DNA of 64,000 bases, taken from NCBI RefSeq assembly GCF_000210075.1, contig NC_021017.1, forward strand, positions 3,214,382 to 3,278,381. Reading direction: 5' to 3'. The translations under genes were made by a program, and so were the position numbers. Under the pieces are notes generated by a model. That model was not told where the DNA came from, did not search any database, and saw only the letters and a program-made list of their open reading frames with translations. Within the stretch, counting starts at the first letter, position 1. Every line of letters starts with the position of its first letter. This document shows positions 2,643-11,797 of the stretch, piece by piece. This stretch comes from Bacteroides xylanisolvens XB1A. GTDB lineage: Bacteria; Bacteroidota; Bacteroidia; Bacteroidales; Bacteroidaceae.

Positions 2643-4367
2643 ATGAAGAAACTACATTTTCTATTAAGCACATTCCTTGTGTTTATATTCACGTCATGCG
2701 GAGAAGATGAACTGAAAGGTGTTGTCTTATCCGAAGATCCGGGGTACGTAAAAGAACCATTGGTAGCCATACAGGCAGAAGATGGCACAGGGAACTGGAT
2801 AAATGGTCTTATTGACCAGAACAGTAGGGTCATAGCCTTAGATTTTCGCATTTTGGACGACCAAAGTGCGGTGAATGTGAAACTCAAACTGGCGGATGAA
2901 TGGGCAAAGCCCATTGATCCGCTTACTACTGATGCTGTACTGGACTTGAGCAGCGGTATCACCCGTATTAAAGTGAATGATGGAGCAGATGATATCGAAT
3001 ATACCATTTTCAGCACTTCTACTCAGCTACTTCGAGGCGTAACGGCTACTTGTAACACAGAGCAGGTTAGTGCTAACTTTATTAATGGCATCGCTTCGTT
3101 ACGTTTCAAACAAAACACTGCATTTGCAAACGTTGTGTTGATGCCGACTTTGGCAGATAACGCAGAAATCATCTCTACGGATCCCGTCAGTCAAAAGGAT
3201 GAAAACGGAAACCTGATTGTTGACCTAAGTAGCACACTTACTATTACTGTAAAAGACAATACGAACAACATGACTAAAAAATATCACTTGAGTGCTGTAA
3301 ATGGAATTATTGACGCAGGGGTAAACTGGAAAAATATTACTGCTGATCTAAAAAGCCAACACAGTAGTATTTGTATTCCTGATTTCATGATTGTCTATGA
3401 AAATAAAAACTTGCATGGAAGGAGCGGTAATACGGGATGGTTGATAACTATTCCTGCCGGTAGAATAAATATGAAGGTTAGCTGGGATATGAATAAAGAC
3501 AATGTAACATGGGCTGAACCCACTGCTCAACATCGTACAACAGCTATCATGAATGATAATATGGATTATTCATTGTTTGTTCCGGGATTGTCCGGGCAAT
3601 TCTGGGTACCGATATTTTATAGCCTCGGGTGGAATGATAGTGGGCTGCTATCCGCACCGCGTCTCGGATATAACCTATCTACTTCTTTGAAGTATTGTCC
3701 GGGAACTCTGGGAATTACAGCTGATGGAAAAGCGGAGATTTCGTATGCAGAAGTGATAGATAATAACTTGTATAAGTTTACCAGCGGCGGAGCCGGCAAA
3801 CAAGCTGCCAATGGAGTACAGTGGTCCCCAACCAGTGCTGTCAGTGGATATTCCTATCCGTTGCAAAAAGGGCAGATCATGATTGCCGGAGAAAATGCAG
3901 AACTTTACAAGACATTTGCTACTAATGAAGGAAGAAATACTTCGACCCGTAACAGAGGAATGGATGGAGCATTGTCAGGAAGTAATTCATGGGCTGCTAA
4001 TCCGGTAAGCATTTGGACTTTTGATGGCAAGCCTGTAGGACGCCGGGCTGTCGGTATCACGGAAGAAGGAGACTTGGTCATTTTTGTAAGTAATCGTTTT
4101 ACGAATTCTTATAACTCGGTAAAAGCAGCTTGGAATGTCTTTAGTGATGGCTCTTCTTTACGGGAAGTTGCTGTGGCATTGCAGGAAGTGGGTTGTACGG
4201 ATGCCATTGTGTTTGGTGAGAACTATCATAGTCCTGTTGTTATTCGGGATGATAGTAGAGGGGTGCCTTTAGGAAAGGTAGCCGGTAGATACGACTGGGA
4301 AACGAACGGCAATGTTAAAAATGCGGATAATGAGGCTAGTTCGCAATCCTGGATAATGTTTAAATAA
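2643..4367 (+). CDS. Surface lipoprotein with phosphodiester glycosidase-like C-terminal domain
   Basis: This 574-residue protein begins with a lipoprotein signal whose lipobox FTSC places the lipid on Cys19. Residues about 30-215 look like repeated Bacteroides beta-sandwich modules (DUF5018-type). The C-terminal half has the traits of the NAGPA/DUF2233 phosphodiester glycosidase fold: AVGITEEGDLVIFVSN is followed by REVAVALQEVGCTDAIVFG, the place where the family usually has a helix and a DGGGS loop. That loop is poorly conserved here, so activity is uncertain. It is the first gene after the divergent promoter region and lies 57 bp before susC, so it probably belongs to the PUL as a surface glycan-binding or glycan-cleaving protein. 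Confidence 0.6.
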   Translation: MKKLHFLLSTFLVFIFTSCGEDELKGVVLSEDPGYVKEPLVAIQAEDGTGNWINGLIDQNSRVIALDFRILDDQSAVNVKLKLADEWAKPIDPLTTDAVLDLSSGITRIKVNDGADDIEYTIFSTSTQLLRGVTATCNTEQVSANFINGIASLRFKQNTAFANVVLMPTLADNAEIISTDPVSQKDENGNLIVDLSSTLTITVKDNTNNMTKKYHLSAVNGIIDAGVNWKNITADLKSQHSSICIPDFMIVYENKNLHGRSGNTGWLITIPAGRINMKVSWDMNKDNVTWAEPTAQHRTTAIMNDNMDYSLFVPGLSGQFWVPIFYSLGWNDSGLLSAPRLGYNLSTSLKYCPGTLGITADGKAEISYAEVIDNNLYKFTSGGAGKQAANGVQWSPTSAVSGYSYPLQKGQIMIAGENAELYKTFATNEGRNTSTRNRGMDGALSGSNSWAANPVSIWTFDGKPVGRRAVGITEEGDLVIFVSNRFTNSYNSVKAAWNVFSDGSSLREVAVALQEVGCTDAIVFGENYHSPVVIRDDSRGVPLGKVAGRYDWETNGNVKNADNEASSQSWIMFK

Positions 4368-4424
4368 GAATATTGTAAAACAATGAGTTAGTAACAAAAG
4401 ATATACACATAAAAACTTAAATCA

Positions 4425-4700
4425 ATGAGTAAAATCATCAAATGCATGTTCTTCGTGCTATTAGCCGCAGTTCTTCCACTGTCGGTTCACGCACAGCAGG
4501 TGACCTTACATTTGCAGGACGTAACGGTGCGCAAAGCGTTCCGGGAGTTGGAGGTCAAAGGAAATGTATCCTTAGTATATGAGAAAAATGATGTGGACCT
4601 GACCCGTAAAGTAACCGTGAAGGTAGATAATCAACCGATAAGCAAGGCACTGGATCAGATTCTGAAAGGGCAGGAATTAATTTATAAAATAAACACATAG
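4425..4700 (+). pseudogene. susC: SusC 5' fragment (signal peptide + STN domain)
   Basis: The 91-codon frame encodes a signal peptide (cleavage near VHAQQ) and a complete STN domain: VTLHLQDVTVRKAFRELE, then QPISKALDQILKG. It breaks off at QELIYKI, where a receptor normally continues with KDNHIIIT. After position 4693 the sequence belongs to the inserted element and adds only two residues before a stop. The missing continuation is found at 11798. As it stands, the fragment would make a secreted STN domain with no receptor body. It could conceivably still contact FecR, but it cannot transport. Confidence 0.95.
4685..4693. repeat. Left 9-bp direct repeat (att core) TAAAATAAA
   Basis: TAAAATAAA at the left junction is repeated exactly at 11789-11797. 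The flank to the left is susC coding sequence; everything to the right up to the second copy is foreign. It is the likely crossover or homology core used by the integrase. Confidence 0.85.
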
Positions 4701-4718
4701 CGAAAAAGTAAATTTGGG

Positions 4719-4761
4719 CAAAGCGTAGCGAATTAGCTGATAGAGCGTTCGTTACGCTTTG
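4719..4761 (+). terminator. Hairpin with T-tract at left end of element
   Basis: CAAAGCGTAGCGAA (4719-4732) pairs with 4748-4761 with a single G-T pair, and TTTTT follows at 4762-4766. It lies just inside the left end. It could stop transcription coming from the PUL promoter into the integrase gene, or serve as an integrase arm site. Confidence 0.55.
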
Positions 4762-4910
4762 TTTTTCTATTGCACAGAGCCAACGAAATACCACCTCGAA
4801 GCCAAACGGAGCAGGAGTTCAGTTACCACCTCGTTACTCCCGTAACGGGTGCAGATTTCTTGCTAAATGGTTCTGTTTCTGTGATTTGCGGCAATTTGCA
4901 TAGCTGTCAG

Positions 4911-4954
4911 TAACTCACTAATAACTAATTTTGTCACCCAAAAAGTGTGAGTTA
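4911..4954 (+). promoter_or_regulatory. Candidate integrase promoter with flanking 8-bp inverted repeat
   Basis: TAATTTTG at 4926-4933 matches the Bacteroides -7 consensus TAnnTTTG and lies 20 bp before the integrase ATG. It sits between TAACTCAC (4911-4918) and its complement GTGAGTTA (4947-4954), which could be an operator. No well-spaced -33 TTTG is present; the nearest is 27 bp away, so the call is tentative. Confidence 0.4.
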
Positions 4955-6186
4955 TGCGAAGTACATTCAAAGTATTGTTTTACGTGAAGAAAGGCAGTGC
5001 CAAACCAAACGGCAACCTGCCTCTGATGTGCCGTATCACGGTGGACGGCGAGATTAAACAGTTCAGTTGCAAGATGGACGTTCCCCCACGACTGTGGGAC
5101 GTGAAGAACAACCGTGCTTCGGGCAAGAGCGTTGAAGCGCAGAGAATCAATCTTGTCGTTGATAAAATTCGGGTGGAGGTAAACCGCCGCTACCAAGAAC
5201 TGATGCAGGCGGACGGTTATGTTACCGCCGCCAAGCTCAAAGACGCCTATCTCGGTATCGGCATCAAGCAGGAAACATTGCTGAAACTGTTCGAGCAGCA
5301 CAACGCCGAGTTTGAGAAGAAAGTCGGGCACAGCAGGGCGCAAGGTACATTTACCCGTTATCGGACGGTCTGCAACCATATCCGGGAGTTTTTGCCCCAT
5401 ACCTACAAGCGTGAGGATATTCCGTTAAAAGAACTCAACCTCACGTTCATCAACGACTTCGAGTATTTTTTGCGCACGGAGAAGAAATGCCGCACCAATA
5501 CCGTGTGGGGCTACATGATTGTGTTGAAGCACATCATTTCCATTGCGAGGAACGACGGGCGTTTGCCCTTTAATCCCTTTGCCGGATATATCAACTCTCC
5601 CGAAAGCGTGGACAGGGGCTACCTCACCCGAACGGAGATACAGACGCTCATGAACGCACCGATGAAGAACGCCACCCATGAACTCGTACGGGACTTGTTC
5701 GTCTTTTCGGTATTCACGGGTTTGGCGTATTCGGACGTGAAGAACCTCACCACCGACCGCCTGCAAACATTCTTCGACGGCAACCTGTGGATAATCACCC
5801 GAAGAAAGAAGACCAACACCGAATCGAACATCCGCCTTTTGGACGTTCCCAAACGTATCATAAAGAAATACAAGGGGCTGGCTCGGGACGGTCATGTTTT
5901 CCCCGTTCCGAGTAACGGAAGTTGCAACAAGATACTTAAAGAAATAGGCAGACAATGCGGCTTCAAGGTGCGTTTGACCTACCATGTTGCAAGACACACG
6001 AACGCCACTACCGTACTTCTGTCGCACGGCGTACCCATCGAAACGGTGAGCCGTCTTTTGGGGCATACCAACATAAAAACCACCCAAATTTACGCCAAAA
6101 TCACCGCCCAGAAGATAAGCCAAGACATGGAAACCTTGTCGCACAAGCTGGAGGATATGGAGAAGAATATCTGCCGAGCCATCTAA
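4954..6186 (+). CDS. int: Tyrosine recombinase/integrase of Bacteroidetes type
   Basis: At 410 residues this has the usual length of Bacteroides integrases. An arm-type DNA-binding domain (about 1-90, KVLFYVKKGSAKPNG) is followed by a SAM-like core-binding domain (about 100-205) and a catalytic domain (about 215-400). Visible catalytic elements are HVAR (His near 344), LLGHTNIKTT and the Tyr nucleophile near 380 in TTQIYAKI. The usual first catalytic Arg (TGLR) is replaced by Ala in VFTGLAYSDVKNL; loss of this Arg is known in the related IntDOT. It should carry out integration at TAAAATAAA and, probably with a helper, excision. The next gene starts 17 bp downstream. Confidence 0.95.
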   Translation: MRSTFKVLFYVKKGSAKPNGNLPLMCRITVDGEIKQFSCKMDVPPRLWDVKNNRASGKSVEAQRINLVVDKIRVEVNRRYQELMQADGYVTAAKLKDAYLGIGIKQETLLKLFEQHNAEFEKKVGHSRAQGTFTRYRTVCNHIREFLPHTYKREDIPLKELNLTFINDFEYFLRTEKKCRTNTVWGYMIVLKHIISIARNDGRLPFNPFAGYINSPESVDRGYLTRTEIQTLMNAPMKNATHELVRDLFVFSVFTGLAYSDVKNLTTDRLQTFFDGNLWIITRRKKTNTESNIRLLDVPKRIIKKYKGLARDGHVFPVPSNGSCNKILKEIGRQCGFKVRLTYHVARHTNATTVLLSHGVPIETVSRLLGHTNIKTTQIYAKITAQKISQDMETLSHKLEDMEKNICRAI

Positions 6187-7198: not shown

Positions 7199-8566
7199 AT
7201 GGGTTTCGTAGTTTTACACATGGAAAAGGCGCACGGCAGCGACAGCGGAACGACCGCACATATCGAGCGTTTCATCATACCGAAGAACGCCGACCCCACA
7301 CGCACGCACCTAAACCGCAGGCTCATCGAATACCCCAACGGGGTGAAAGACCGTTCGGCGGCTATACAGCAGAGATTAGAAGAAGCTGGGCTGACACGCA
7401 AAATCGGAAGCAACCAAGTACGGGCTATCCGCATCAACGTATCGGGAACGCACGAGGACATGAAGCGGATAGAAGAAGAGGGGCGTTTGGACGAGTGGTG
7501 CGCCGACAATCTGAAATACTTCGCCGATACGTTCGGAGAGGAGAACATCGTGGCGGCTCACCTGCACAGGGACGAGGAAACACCGCACATACACGTTACG
7601 CTCGTCCCCATCGTCAAGGGAGAGCGAAAGCGCAGGAAACGGGAGGAGCAGACGAAGAAGCGATACCGCAAGAAGCCGACCGACACCGTGAGACTGTGCG
7701 CAGACGATATTATGACACGGCTGAAATTGAAGTCCTACCAAGATACCTATGCCGAAGCGATGGCGAAATACGGGCTGCAAAGGGGCATAGACGGCTCGAA
7801 AGCTCGCCACAAGTCCACGCAGCAGTATTATCGGGATATACAGAAACTCGCCGACAGTCTGAAAGCGGAGGTGGTGGATTTGCAGCAGCAGAAAGAAACG
7901 GCGCAGGAGGAATTAAGGCAGGCGAAAAAAGAGATACAGACCGAGAAGCTGAAAGGGGCGGCAACCGCTGCAGCCGCCAACATCGCCGAGAGCGTCGGTT
8001 CTCTTTTCGGGAGCAACAGGGTCAAGACACTGGAAAGGGAGAACACTGCCCTGCATAGGGAGGTAGCCGACCACGAGGAAACCATCGAAGCCCTGCAAGA
8101 TAGGATACAGACCATGCAGGCAGACCACAGCCGGGAGATACGGGAAATGCAGCGGAAGCACGGCAGGGAGATAGCAGACAAGGACACAAGGCACAAGCAG
8201 GAAATATCGTTTCTGAAAACGGTAATCGCAAGGGCAGCGGCATGGTTTCCCTATTTTCGTGAAATGCTCCGTATCGAAAACCTTTGCCGCCTTGTGGGGT
8301 TCGATGAAAGGCAGACCGCAACGCTCGTCAAGGGAAAGCCGTTGGAGTATGCAGGGGAACTCTATTCGGAGGAACACGGACGGAAATTCACGACCGAAAA
8401 GGCAGGTTTCCAAGTGGTGAAAGACCCCACGGACGGGACTAAATTGGTTCTTGCCATCAACCGAAAGCCCATTGCCGAGTGGTTCAAGGAACAGTTCGAG
8501 AAGTTAAGGCAGAACATACGGCAACCTATACAGCAGCAAAGGAAAAGCAGGGGTATGAAACTGTAA
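7199..8566 (+). CDS. mobV: MobV-family relaxase (Pre/Mob type)
   Basis: This 455-residue protein has an N-terminal relaxase domain (about 1-210). The metal-binding/active-site signature HLHRDEETPHIH (about 121-132) is diagnostic of the pMV158 MobV/Pre family. The stretch from about 215 to 345 is a long charged coiled coil (VVDLQQQKETAQEELRQAKK and onward). The C-terminal domain of about 100 residues is of unknown role. It should nick oriT and pilot the single strand through a helper conjugation pore. The palindrome cluster ends about 50 bp before the start, as expected for a self-recognising oriT-mob unit. Confidence 0.93.
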   Translation: MGFVVLHMEKAHGSDSGTTAHIERFIIPKNADPTRTHLNRRLIEYPNGVKDRSAAIQQRLEEAGLTRKIGSNQVRAIRINVSGTHEDMKRIEEEGRLDEWCADNLKYFADTFGEENIVAAHLHRDEETPHIHVTLVPIVKGERKRRKREEQTKKRYRKKPTDTVRLCADDIMTRLKLKSYQDTYAEAMAKYGLQRGIDGSKARHKSTQQYYRDIQKLADSLKAEVVDLQQQKETAQEELRQAKKEIQTEKLKGAATAAAANIAESVGSLFGSNRVKTLERENTALHREVADHEETIEALQDRIQTMQADHSREIREMQRKHGREIADKDTRHKQEISFLKTVIARAAAWFPYFREMLRIENLCRLVGFDERQTATLVKGKPLEYAGELYSEEHGRKFTTEKAGFQVVKDPTDGTKLVLAINRKPIAEWFKEQFEKLRQNIRQPIQQQRKSRGMKL

Positions 8567-8705
8567 AGCTCCAATTTTATACAGCGAGCAAATAAATCTA
8601 TTGCAACATAAGTGATTATCACAACTTTTCACTACCTTTGTGGTTGGATTAGGGAAACTCCGTCCAAGACATATTAGAAAAGAAAGAAGCGTTATGCTTA
8701 TCTTG

Positions 8706-8854
8706 TTGTTGAAAACGTAGGAAATTTTCAAAATGAGCAAGGATGGCATAGTGGTTCTCACGCTATAGCGTGGGCTGCTATTACTACATCTGCTCATTAG
8801 GTTTTTCCTACGACCTTCAACAAAGACGTGGCATTGCAGTTCCACGCTTCGTGG
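8706..8854 (+). other. Long nested palindrome plus alternative hairpins ahead of cargo
   Basis: Within the 335-bp gap between mobV and the first cargo gene, one large imperfect hairpin spans 8706-8823. TTGTTGAA (8706-8713) pairs with 8816-8823, CGTAGGAAA (8716-8724) with 8804-8812, AATGAGCA (8732-8739) with 8791-8798, GATG (8742-8745) with 8787-8790, and the tip is the palindrome CACGCTATAGCGTG (8759-8772). Directly after it, CGTGG (8827-8831), CCACG (8842-8846) and CGTGG (8850-8854) can form two mutually exclusive hairpins. This could be a structured leader RNA, a recombination site or an attenuator for the DUF1266-like gene. Confidence 0.7.
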
Positions 8855-8901
8855 TTTAATAATAAAAGGTCTTAAGGAGCTGGAAAGACAAACATAGTAC
8901 T

Positions 8902-9639
8902 ATGGACATGACATCTCTTTGGGGAAGACTTGCAAAATTGCAGAGTTTCTTTCAGGATGGTTTGAATGTGGATGAAAATTCACATTTGCCAGAAGCGGAT
9001 TTACGCAAGATAAGTCTTGGCAATCTGTATGTATATCAACAACAAGGTGTATTGAACACATTCGAAACTGGCGTAACTCCCTCTGTTCGTAAAGTTATTT
9101 TAGGTGAATACTTTGGTATAACGGATAGGGATAGTGCCATCGAAACTTTGAATTGGTTGTCGCAAGCTCCCTCGCAAACAATGTTTCACTATGCTTATAC
9201 GGCTTTTCTTCAAGGAGGGGGTAATATAAGCAGGAAGTGGCTTAATGAAAATGAAGAATTGAAAGAACACACCGATTTCCGAAATGACTGTTTGGAAAAG
9301 TTGGAAACGATGGAGGAAAAATATCCGGACATTGAACAAGCTGGAATTGTCGTATCCAAAGAAGAAATGGGCAAACTCGGAGTACTTGCGTGGGATGCAG
9401 GAAGATTAAACTTTATCAGCAGACTTTGCCTTGAGCAAGAGTACATTGTAAAAGAAGAATGTATGCAGTGTATCAATGCCGCTTACGAGATGACCAAAGA
9501 AGTTTATACCAATTGGAAAGACTATGCTTATAGTTATGTTCTTGGTCGTACTTTGTCGATGGGAACTACCAACATGATTGGATTGGCAGAAGATTTACTG
9601 ACAGATACCAAAAGCCCTTGGACTTATATAAAATGGTGA
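8902..9639 (+). CDS. DUF1266-like cargo protein
   Basis: This 245-residue soluble protein has no signal peptide. The C-terminal part has the DUF1266 pattern: GVLAWDAGRLNFI, then about 30 residues on TNWKDYAYSYVLGRTL. An upstream stretch (about 50-90) with VILGEYFGITDRDSAIETL also fits that family. The biochemical role of DUF1266 is unknown to me; such proteins turn up in accessory regions and could act as immunity proteins. It is the first cargo gene after the mobilization module, preceded by the structured leader, and is more AT-rich than mobV, suggesting separate acquisition. The next gene follows after 45 bp. Confidence 0.6.
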   Translation: MDMTSLWGRLAKLQSFFQDGLNVDENSHLPEADLRKISLGNLYVYQQQGVLNTFETGVTPSVRKVILGEYFGITDRDSAIETLNWLSQAPSQTMFHYAYTAFLQGGGNISRKWLNENEELKEHTDFRNDCLEKLETMEEKYPDIEQAGIVVSKEEMGKLGVLAWDAGRLNFISRLCLEQEYIVKEECMQCINAAYEMTKEVYTNWKDYAYSYVLGRTLSMGTTNMIGLAEDLLTDTKSPWTYIKW

Positions 9640-11788: not shown

Positions 11789-11797
11789 TAAAATAAA
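11789..11797. repeat. Right 9-bp direct repeat (att core) TAAAATAAA
   Basis: This is an exact copy of 4685-4693. To its right the susC reading frame resumes with codons for KDNHIIIT, the normal end of an STN domain. It marks the right boundary of the element. Confidence 0.85.

Follow-up and report, generated by a model that had tools for sequence, protein, structure and literature searches.

The 3' ends of tRNA genes serve as attachment sites for integrative elements, which leave the RNA whole, and the attC sites of integrons carry R boxes with the consensus RYYYAAC ... GTTRRRY in that order. Riboswitches and other structured cis-regulatory leaders stand 5' of genes behind a promoter motif of their own, and combine a covarying pseudoknotted fold and a near-invariant core with a gene-proximal pairing next to the start codon. 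Two structured RNAs of unknown function have been listed from Bacteroidetes, Flavo-1 (RF01705) and Bacteroidales-1 (RF01693) (PMC2864571), the former overlapping some 5' transcript regions in Flavobacterium psychrophilum (PMC9723704). Fremin and Bhatt reported a 109-bp candidate RNA, HMP2_4078, mostly from Bacteroidetes and located near phage integrase and D5_N domains, which the accessible text of their paper describes as palindromic and without a terminator (PMC8040213). The rAID defence clusters of Bacteroidales bring together a tyrosine recombinase, short accessory genes and "conserved intergenic sequence motifs" (PMC12247911).

We analysed an element found in the genome of Bacteroides xylanisolvens XB1A, within a stretch of 64,000 nt (positions 3,214,382 to 3,278,381 of contig NC_021017.1) that is called the window throughout. 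It has the 5' position, promoter motif, fold, core and gene-proximal pairing listed above for riboswitches and cis-regulatory leaders, and differs from riboswitches in the 65 families of protein encoded downstream of its copies and in matching no Rfam family (4227 tested, Rfam 15) at the gathering score. One chance-level miRNA match overlaps a diverged member, L243 (26 bits for a cut-off of 110, E 0.083), and neither Flavo-1 nor Bacteroidales-1 gave a match at E-values up to 1 (6 loci), 10 (20 loci) or 5 (11 loci). In the literature searched (supplements and most subscription journals lay outside the search), we found no recognisable description of the element, and its sequence words were absent. 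HMP2_4078, compared by its description in the accessible part of the source only, may be the same element. We consider it probable that the element is a portable, promoter-linked 5' leader RNA, multi-helix and pseudoknotted, which controls the genes downstream of it and whose 3' end is also an attB site.

In the window, a mobilisable element splits a susC-like gene (start at 4425-4700, rest from 11889, by eye) and carries, in this order, a tyrosine integrase, a Mob_Pre relaxase, the palindrome and then cargo headed by a DUF1266 gene (Table 1). The sequence AAAATAAA is present at both element/susC-like junctions (4686-4693 and 11790-11797), so that the element, as judged from these junctions, probably spans ~4694 to ~11790. 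At eight other loci, relaxase genes 84-93% identical to this one over their last 167 nt are followed immediately by different sequence, and blastn found no leader in the 0.8-5 kb 3' of these eight related relaxases (four of the eight with one common downstream start). Because these related relaxases precede other, leader-free sequence, the leader appears to travel with the cargo and not with the relaxase backbone. The cargo right after this relaxase type varies among loci (window 8567 onward; L224, L226-L232), with annotated SMI1/KNR4 and DUF2750 genes in L224 and, by eye, Crp-like, acetyltransferase-like and methylase-like genes in other related-relaxase loci. In L224, L228 and L232, what follows includes, by eye, a protein similar to the MORN protein of the window.

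The original prediction placed a nested palindrome with a 14-bp palindromic tip at 8706-8823. This palindrome is real: the arms at 8706-8713/8816-8823, 8716-8724/8804-8812 and 8732-8739/8791-8798 are all 100% complementary, further arms are formed by ATAG (8748-8751) with CTAT (8778-8781) and by the apical CTCACGC (8757-8763) with GCGTGGG (8768-8774), and the folding energy of 8680-8850 is -62.9 kcal/mol against -38.7 (sd 3.6) for 200 shuffles, none of which was as good (z -6.68). The tip is a 14-nt perfect palindrome, CACGCTATAGCGTG (8759-8772), which as a hairpin gives a 5-bp stem with a TATA loop. The hairpin thus held up, while its coordinates proved too narrow, as it is the inner part of a larger element of ~8646-8889. 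The conserved unit runs from a TAnnTTTG motif through a 5' hairpin, an outer helix and a 3' hairpin, after which comes the ATG (Table 1).

Table 1. Features of the mobilisable element and of the conserved unit, in window coordinates
Feature	Coordinates	Strand	Evidence
Tyrosine integrase of mobilisable element	4954-6186		
Mob_Pre relaxase of mobilisable element	7199-8566		
TACCTTTG, match to Bacteroides sigma-ABfr -7 motif TAnnTTTG	8633-8640	+	Motif in 166/175 copies
P1, 5' hairpin at expected transcript start	8646-8665	+	Covariation
P0 5' strand GAAGCGT, outer closing helix, partner 8844-8850	8686-8692	+	Consensus fold; permuted-helix test
PK1 5' strand CTTG, partner CAAG 8738-8741	8702-8705	+	3/5 pairs with both-side changes, 72% of cells paired
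P3a 5' strand GTTGAA, partner TTCAAC 8816-8821	8708-8713	+	6/6 pairs with both-side changes
P3b 5' strand CGTAGGAAA, partner TTTCCTACG 8804-8812	8716-8724	+	99.6% of cells paired
P4 5' strand AATGAGCA, partner TGCTCATT 8791-8798	8732-8739	+	5/5 counted pairs with both-side changes, 71% of cells paired
P6/P7 apical hairpin, near-invariant internal loop, 14-nt palindromic tip	8748-8781	+	98-99.7% of cells paired
PK2 5' strand CAGTTCC, partner GGAGCTG 8876-8882	8837-8843	+	4/5 pairs with both-side changes, 84% of cells paired
CAGTTCCACGCTT, core of attachment site used elsewhere, unoccupied here	8837-8849	+	10/10 element ends adjoin motif or near variant
P0 3' strand ACGCTTC, end of conserved module	8844-8850	+	Consensus fold; homology border
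P10 hairpin GTCTT/AAGAC, PK2 3' strand within its loop	8869-8889	+	Weak support
First gene of the cargo, placed under the leader, encoding a 245-aa DUF1266 protein	8902-9639	+	Pfam PF06889, E 9e-33

For the tool alignments we kept 41 of 145 copies, diverse and nearly gap-free. Across these 41 sequences, 186 cells of the inner unit were changed on both sides against 73.9 after shuffling, and 249 cells of the full unit against 107.3; none of 500 shuffles reached either value. Because the sequences used for counting were also those that yielded the structure, slid controls are biased towards it, and we give more weight to the permutation tests and to the diverged set. In 31 diverged members, comparison of own with permuted strands gave z 4.6 for P0 and z 5.2 for PK2 (0 of 5000 permutations in each case), and z -0.6 and 0.8 for two controls of the test. 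Two further helices, P2 and P8, were both counted in the 41-sequence structure and are conserved in near relatives, but the 31 diverged members gave them no support (z 1.3 and 0.8, respectively); they were dropped, and there is thus no evidence for a switch between P0 and P2/P8.

Among the single helices, the top covarying column pair lies in P3a (z 37, four Watson-Crick types, 145 copies). All five pairs of the P1 main stem are changed on both sides, with 87% of cells paired and APC z-scores of 12.0 and 9.7 for two of the pairs, and both-side changes occur in three of the six P3b pairs counted. The P10 main stem has both-side changes in 4/4 pairs but only 61% of its cells are paired, and 34.5% for a fifth pair. 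A U.G wobble within P6/P7 (8758/8773) is conserved in 141/145 copies. An alternative local helix that excludes the outer P3a, named Palt, shows 27 both-side changes against 9.1 after shuffling; as P3a and Palt are mutually exclusive and both covary, this suggests that the leader may take two conformations. G.U pairs exceed A.C mismatches by 48:1 in P7 and 22:0 in P0, an excess that fits a + strand RNA; the ratio is even (39:42) in the other helices of the counted structure, outside P7 and PK1. Aligned copies therefore hold many compensatory changes, which the original prediction had left to an alignment of this kind.

TAnnTTTG, reported for the primary sigma factor of Bacteroides, sigma-ABfr, as its -7 motif (PMC7366714), occurs within the first 40 nt of the excised sequence in 166 of 175 copies, compared with 1.6% of 3197 control windows, and sequence conservation begins just 3' of it (by eye). 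At the other end, 154 of 169 copies have an ATG-ORF of at least 60 aa that starts at +20 to +120 after the unit (median 52 nt, IQR 49-56), a criterion satisfied by chance at 35% of 2771 random positions and at 23 of 165 mirror positions. The 3' strand of PK2 ends a median of 23 nt (IQR 20-28) before the ATG in 135 of 141 scorable copies, and 19 nt before it in the window; 13 of the 154 copies were dropped from this count as no ACGCTT-like end was found in them, and the free search for the PK2 partner accepts 5 bp, so that chance matches are included.

An own promoter motif would equally be expected of a gene for a trans-acting small RNA that lies ahead of other genes by chance, and the 15 of 169 copies with no ORF in the expected place could be read in that way. 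We regard such a gene as quite improbable in view of the narrow ATG distance in the other 154 copies and of PK2, which pairs with a gene-proximal stretch and covaries out to diverged members. A simple scan of 8550-8950 for intrinsic terminators (a GC-rich hairpin followed by a U run) also found no terminator-like site, which speaks against a small RNA gene; on the same result we rejected a reading of the palindrome itself as a terminator.

We clustered the 154 downstream proteins by blastp into 65 families, which include DUF1266, a DarT-domain protein and a TOTE-type helicase, as well as numerous small products of secreted or lipoprotein-like type; with genes spread over so many families, no ligand can be guessed. 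Together with the promoter motif, the narrow start-codon spacing and the covariation, this diversity backs the structured leader RNA that had been one of the roles first suggested. A total of 182 pairs of leaders at least 90% identical precede different protein families (the pairs are not independent), and in 115 of them homology ends 0-4 nt past the position of CACGCTT. Resistance genes are among those downstream: at L193 (pBUN1, 4001-5143), L183 and L057 the leader lies directly 5' of a class A beta-lactamase gene (two loci) or of a nucleotidyltransferase-like gene. The beta-lactamase belongs to the MUN family, annotated as blaMUN-1 on plasmid pBUN1, and the other gene is lincosamide/aminoglycoside-nucleotidyltransferase-like. 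Within the window's own genome, diverged leaders L221, L239 and L240 stand ahead of RibD_C-matching genes (L239 below the cut-off), and L221, being beside rteR and BTnc005, is probably on a CTnDOT-like region. Diverged leaders L220, L241, L242 and L243 of the same genome have a long extended apical stem and stand ahead of similar small proteins (by eye), of which the one after L243 has an HTH_17 match below the cut-off.

Searches for further copies, which the original prediction had expected ahead of different genes, found many. Within the genus, DNA similarity reveals a copy in 85 of 158 genomes (E-value of 0.01 or better), and within the order in 45 of 393 genomes and 24 of 206 genera (E-value of 1e-4). 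A covariance model built from the 41 near copies (R1) and searched against 296 genomes of the phylum detected full-length members in 14 that lie outside the order, its other two phylum matches being the own genome and a weak one from the same genus. A broader covariance model (R2; E-values of both models are rough) placed members at 17 sites of the window's own genome at an E-value of 1.1e-5 or better, 10 of them outside the set from which R2 was built, and in 18 of 40 genomes of the order (own genome included), with up to 23 in one fragmented assembly. On 384 kb comprising the window and 40 control stretches from the genus, R2 returned the window copy and one more strong match. A pattern scan of named genomes yielded at least 118 stretches, nearly all titled Bacteroidales among the matches listed, which include Bacteroides, Phocaeicola, Prevotella, Alistipes, Muribaculaceae and Parabacteroides; two titles among the matches listed name Clostridia and Roseburia (MAG contigs, possibly misbinned). 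The element was also found in 7 plasmid records, in 1 phage record and in 10 viral contigs (the contigs by exact pattern). With so few phage and viral sequences, a phage element was set aside, copies being mostly not phage-borne.

Many near-identical copies with sharp borders are what a selfish repeat, MITE- or REP-like and without regulatory role, would leave. We give such a repeat almost no weight, since covariation extends to other orders, placement ahead of start codons is consistent, and under the thresholds applied none of the copies had P3a and P4 broken together (0/145). On that last count we also discarded chimeric leaders as a sign of recombination within the unit. By eye, the leader at L177 (2843) looks chimeric, its 5' half being of one subtype and its 3' half of another.

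Comparison of occupied with unoccupied copies indicates that the 3' end of the leader, CAGTTCCACGCTT, doubles as the site at which a family of tyrosine-integrase elements inserts. The second leader copy of the own genome (5018226-5018390, minus strand) is without its gene, and a DarT-domain gene 16.4 kb away starts with the leader's last bases only, TTGCAGTTCCACGCTT. The intervening 16.4-kb insert has the 13-bp repeat at both ends and carries a Mob_Pre relaxase and, at the gene-side end, two tandem tyrosine integrases (Phage_integrase, E-values of 2.6e-8 and 1.3e-6, above the Pfam cut-off). An unoccupied site is provided by a Parabacteroides plasmid locus (L190) with an identical leader (219/219 nt) and an uninterrupted gene, whose product (419 aa) is 100% identical to that of the split gene. 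Searching the order gave relatives of the integrase end in 9 of 393 genomes, own genome included. Of the 15 integrase matches listed, 5 are second integrases of elements that another match already represents; the 10 distinct element ends of the loci listed all adjoin TTGC[AG]GTTCCA plus a CGCTT-like end, with an exact 13-bp core in five and near variants in the other five. A TAnnTTTG motif lies 66 nt inside the element end and points outward at the gene in 8 of the 10 ends. The next ATG-ORF follows 8 to 253 nt after the att motif across the 10 ends, one of which has no ORF longer than 15 aa. Among the 10 flanking genes, three match families whose members have a whole leader at other loci. Some of the element ends (L322-L331) hold a GTTATGCTT-like stretch that resembles the 5' segment of the leader and is possibly a bypass leader. 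Genome G447 has a complete leader, suitably oriented, at a distance of ~40 kb from one of its element ends; the sequence 3' of this leader begins GAACC, which is also the case in the own genome. The far end of the other G447 element showed no recognisable leader, and one leader of G447 with GAACC behind it is without an assigned integrase.

Of the insertion hotspot that had also been suggested for the palindrome, what stands is an attachment site limited to the 3' end of the unit, and the copy in the window is unoccupied. The parallel with tRNA genes is that the tyrosine integrase targets the 3' end of a gene for a structured RNA, with the RNA left intact; the site differs in that the element end brings an outward TAnnTTTG in 8/10 cases and, because the RNA is the leader of a message, in that insertion cuts off the leader's gene. 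The rAID clusters likewise belong to Bacteroidales and hold a tyrosine recombinase and short accessory genes, and the recombinase and the DUF1266 cargo led us to consider identity with them. We rejected it as a weak fit, since the unit is rarely present more than once per locus.

With a true integration site at its end, a strong palindrome and MobV homologues present in 25 of the 105 leader loci compared (control stretches, 0 of 40), the unit could be thought to act as DNA, either as an attC-like single-strand site or as a single-stranded-DNA promoter upon conjugative entry. The MobV comparison covers those 105 of the 118 contig loci that are at least 7 kb long, with controls taken from genomes of the genus only and eight query proteins from the own genome. 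We judge a role at the DNA level to be very improbable given the G.U over A.C skew in P7 and P0, the canonical double-strand promoter motif 5' of the conserved unit, and covariation that extends to the stretch beside the ATG. The attC-like site of the original prediction fails in particular, as the box pair occurs in order in 1 of 176 copies and is absent from the window copy. Cassette arrays flanked by copies were not seen either, with only 4 of 185 loci holding more than one copy (loci are mostly 3-8 kb long, so that wider arrays could be missed).

The main rival to a sensing leader is a constitutive one of the same anatomy, which would stabilise the message or enhance its translation and so give new genes reliable expression in a phylum without Shine-Dalgarno sequences. 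Such a leader would sit well with downstream genes that have no common function, with the portability of the module, and with the 8 of 10 element ends that supply a promoter motif facing outward together with a leader of much reduced length, which looks like a provision for expression. We nevertheless hold it to be unlikely, since a near-invariant apical internal loop and the covarying, mutually exclusive P3a and Palt both exceed what a stabiliser needs.

For the regulatory leader that we prefer, comparison of the copies establishes the conservation at the RNA level, the structure, the spacing, the distribution and the integration site. From these we infer a transcript start, control of translation, a binding site and a switch, as follows. 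RNA polymerase would start just 3' of the TAnnTTTG box, and the first ~205-245 nt of the transcript would fold into a multi-helix, pseudoknotted domain closed by P0. The last segment of this domain, CAGUUCC, would pair with a stretch of the P10 loop that ends 19 nt before the AUG in the window, close enough for the state of the domain to reach the ribosome-binding region. Bacteroidetes messages are described as lacking a Shine-Dalgarno sequence and as enriched in adenine just before the start codon (PMC7366714), so that a pseudoknot near the start codon could matter there. The likely candidate site for a small molecule or a protein is P6/P7; its occupation would be reported to PK2/P10, and the leader would thereby set the start of translation. 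The module is found ahead of unrelated genes and moves with mobile cargo, and its 3' terminal 13 bp act as attB for a family of tyrosine-integrase elements, whose insertion keeps the leader whole, parts it from its gene and supplies an outward promoter motif.

As a broader and tentative proposal, which we put forward as possible rather than probable, the element would be one of the most numerous orphan RNA switches of Bacteroidia, ancient and present in ~20 copies per genome at most, that plugs unrelated acquired genes, drug-resistance genes included, into one host signal; a family of integrating elements would have evolved to land precisely at the end of the leader, with the RNA kept whole and the sensor over the trapped gene replaced by their own outward promoter and a short bypass leader. 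If the leader does sense a signal, many accessory genes of dominant gut bacteria would share one control that has no Rfam entry, with resistance and presumed defence genes among them, and this would account for the way in which incoming foreign genes are brought under a host regulatory circuit. The attachment site would add a case in which an integrase targets the leader of a message and rewires the gene behind it.
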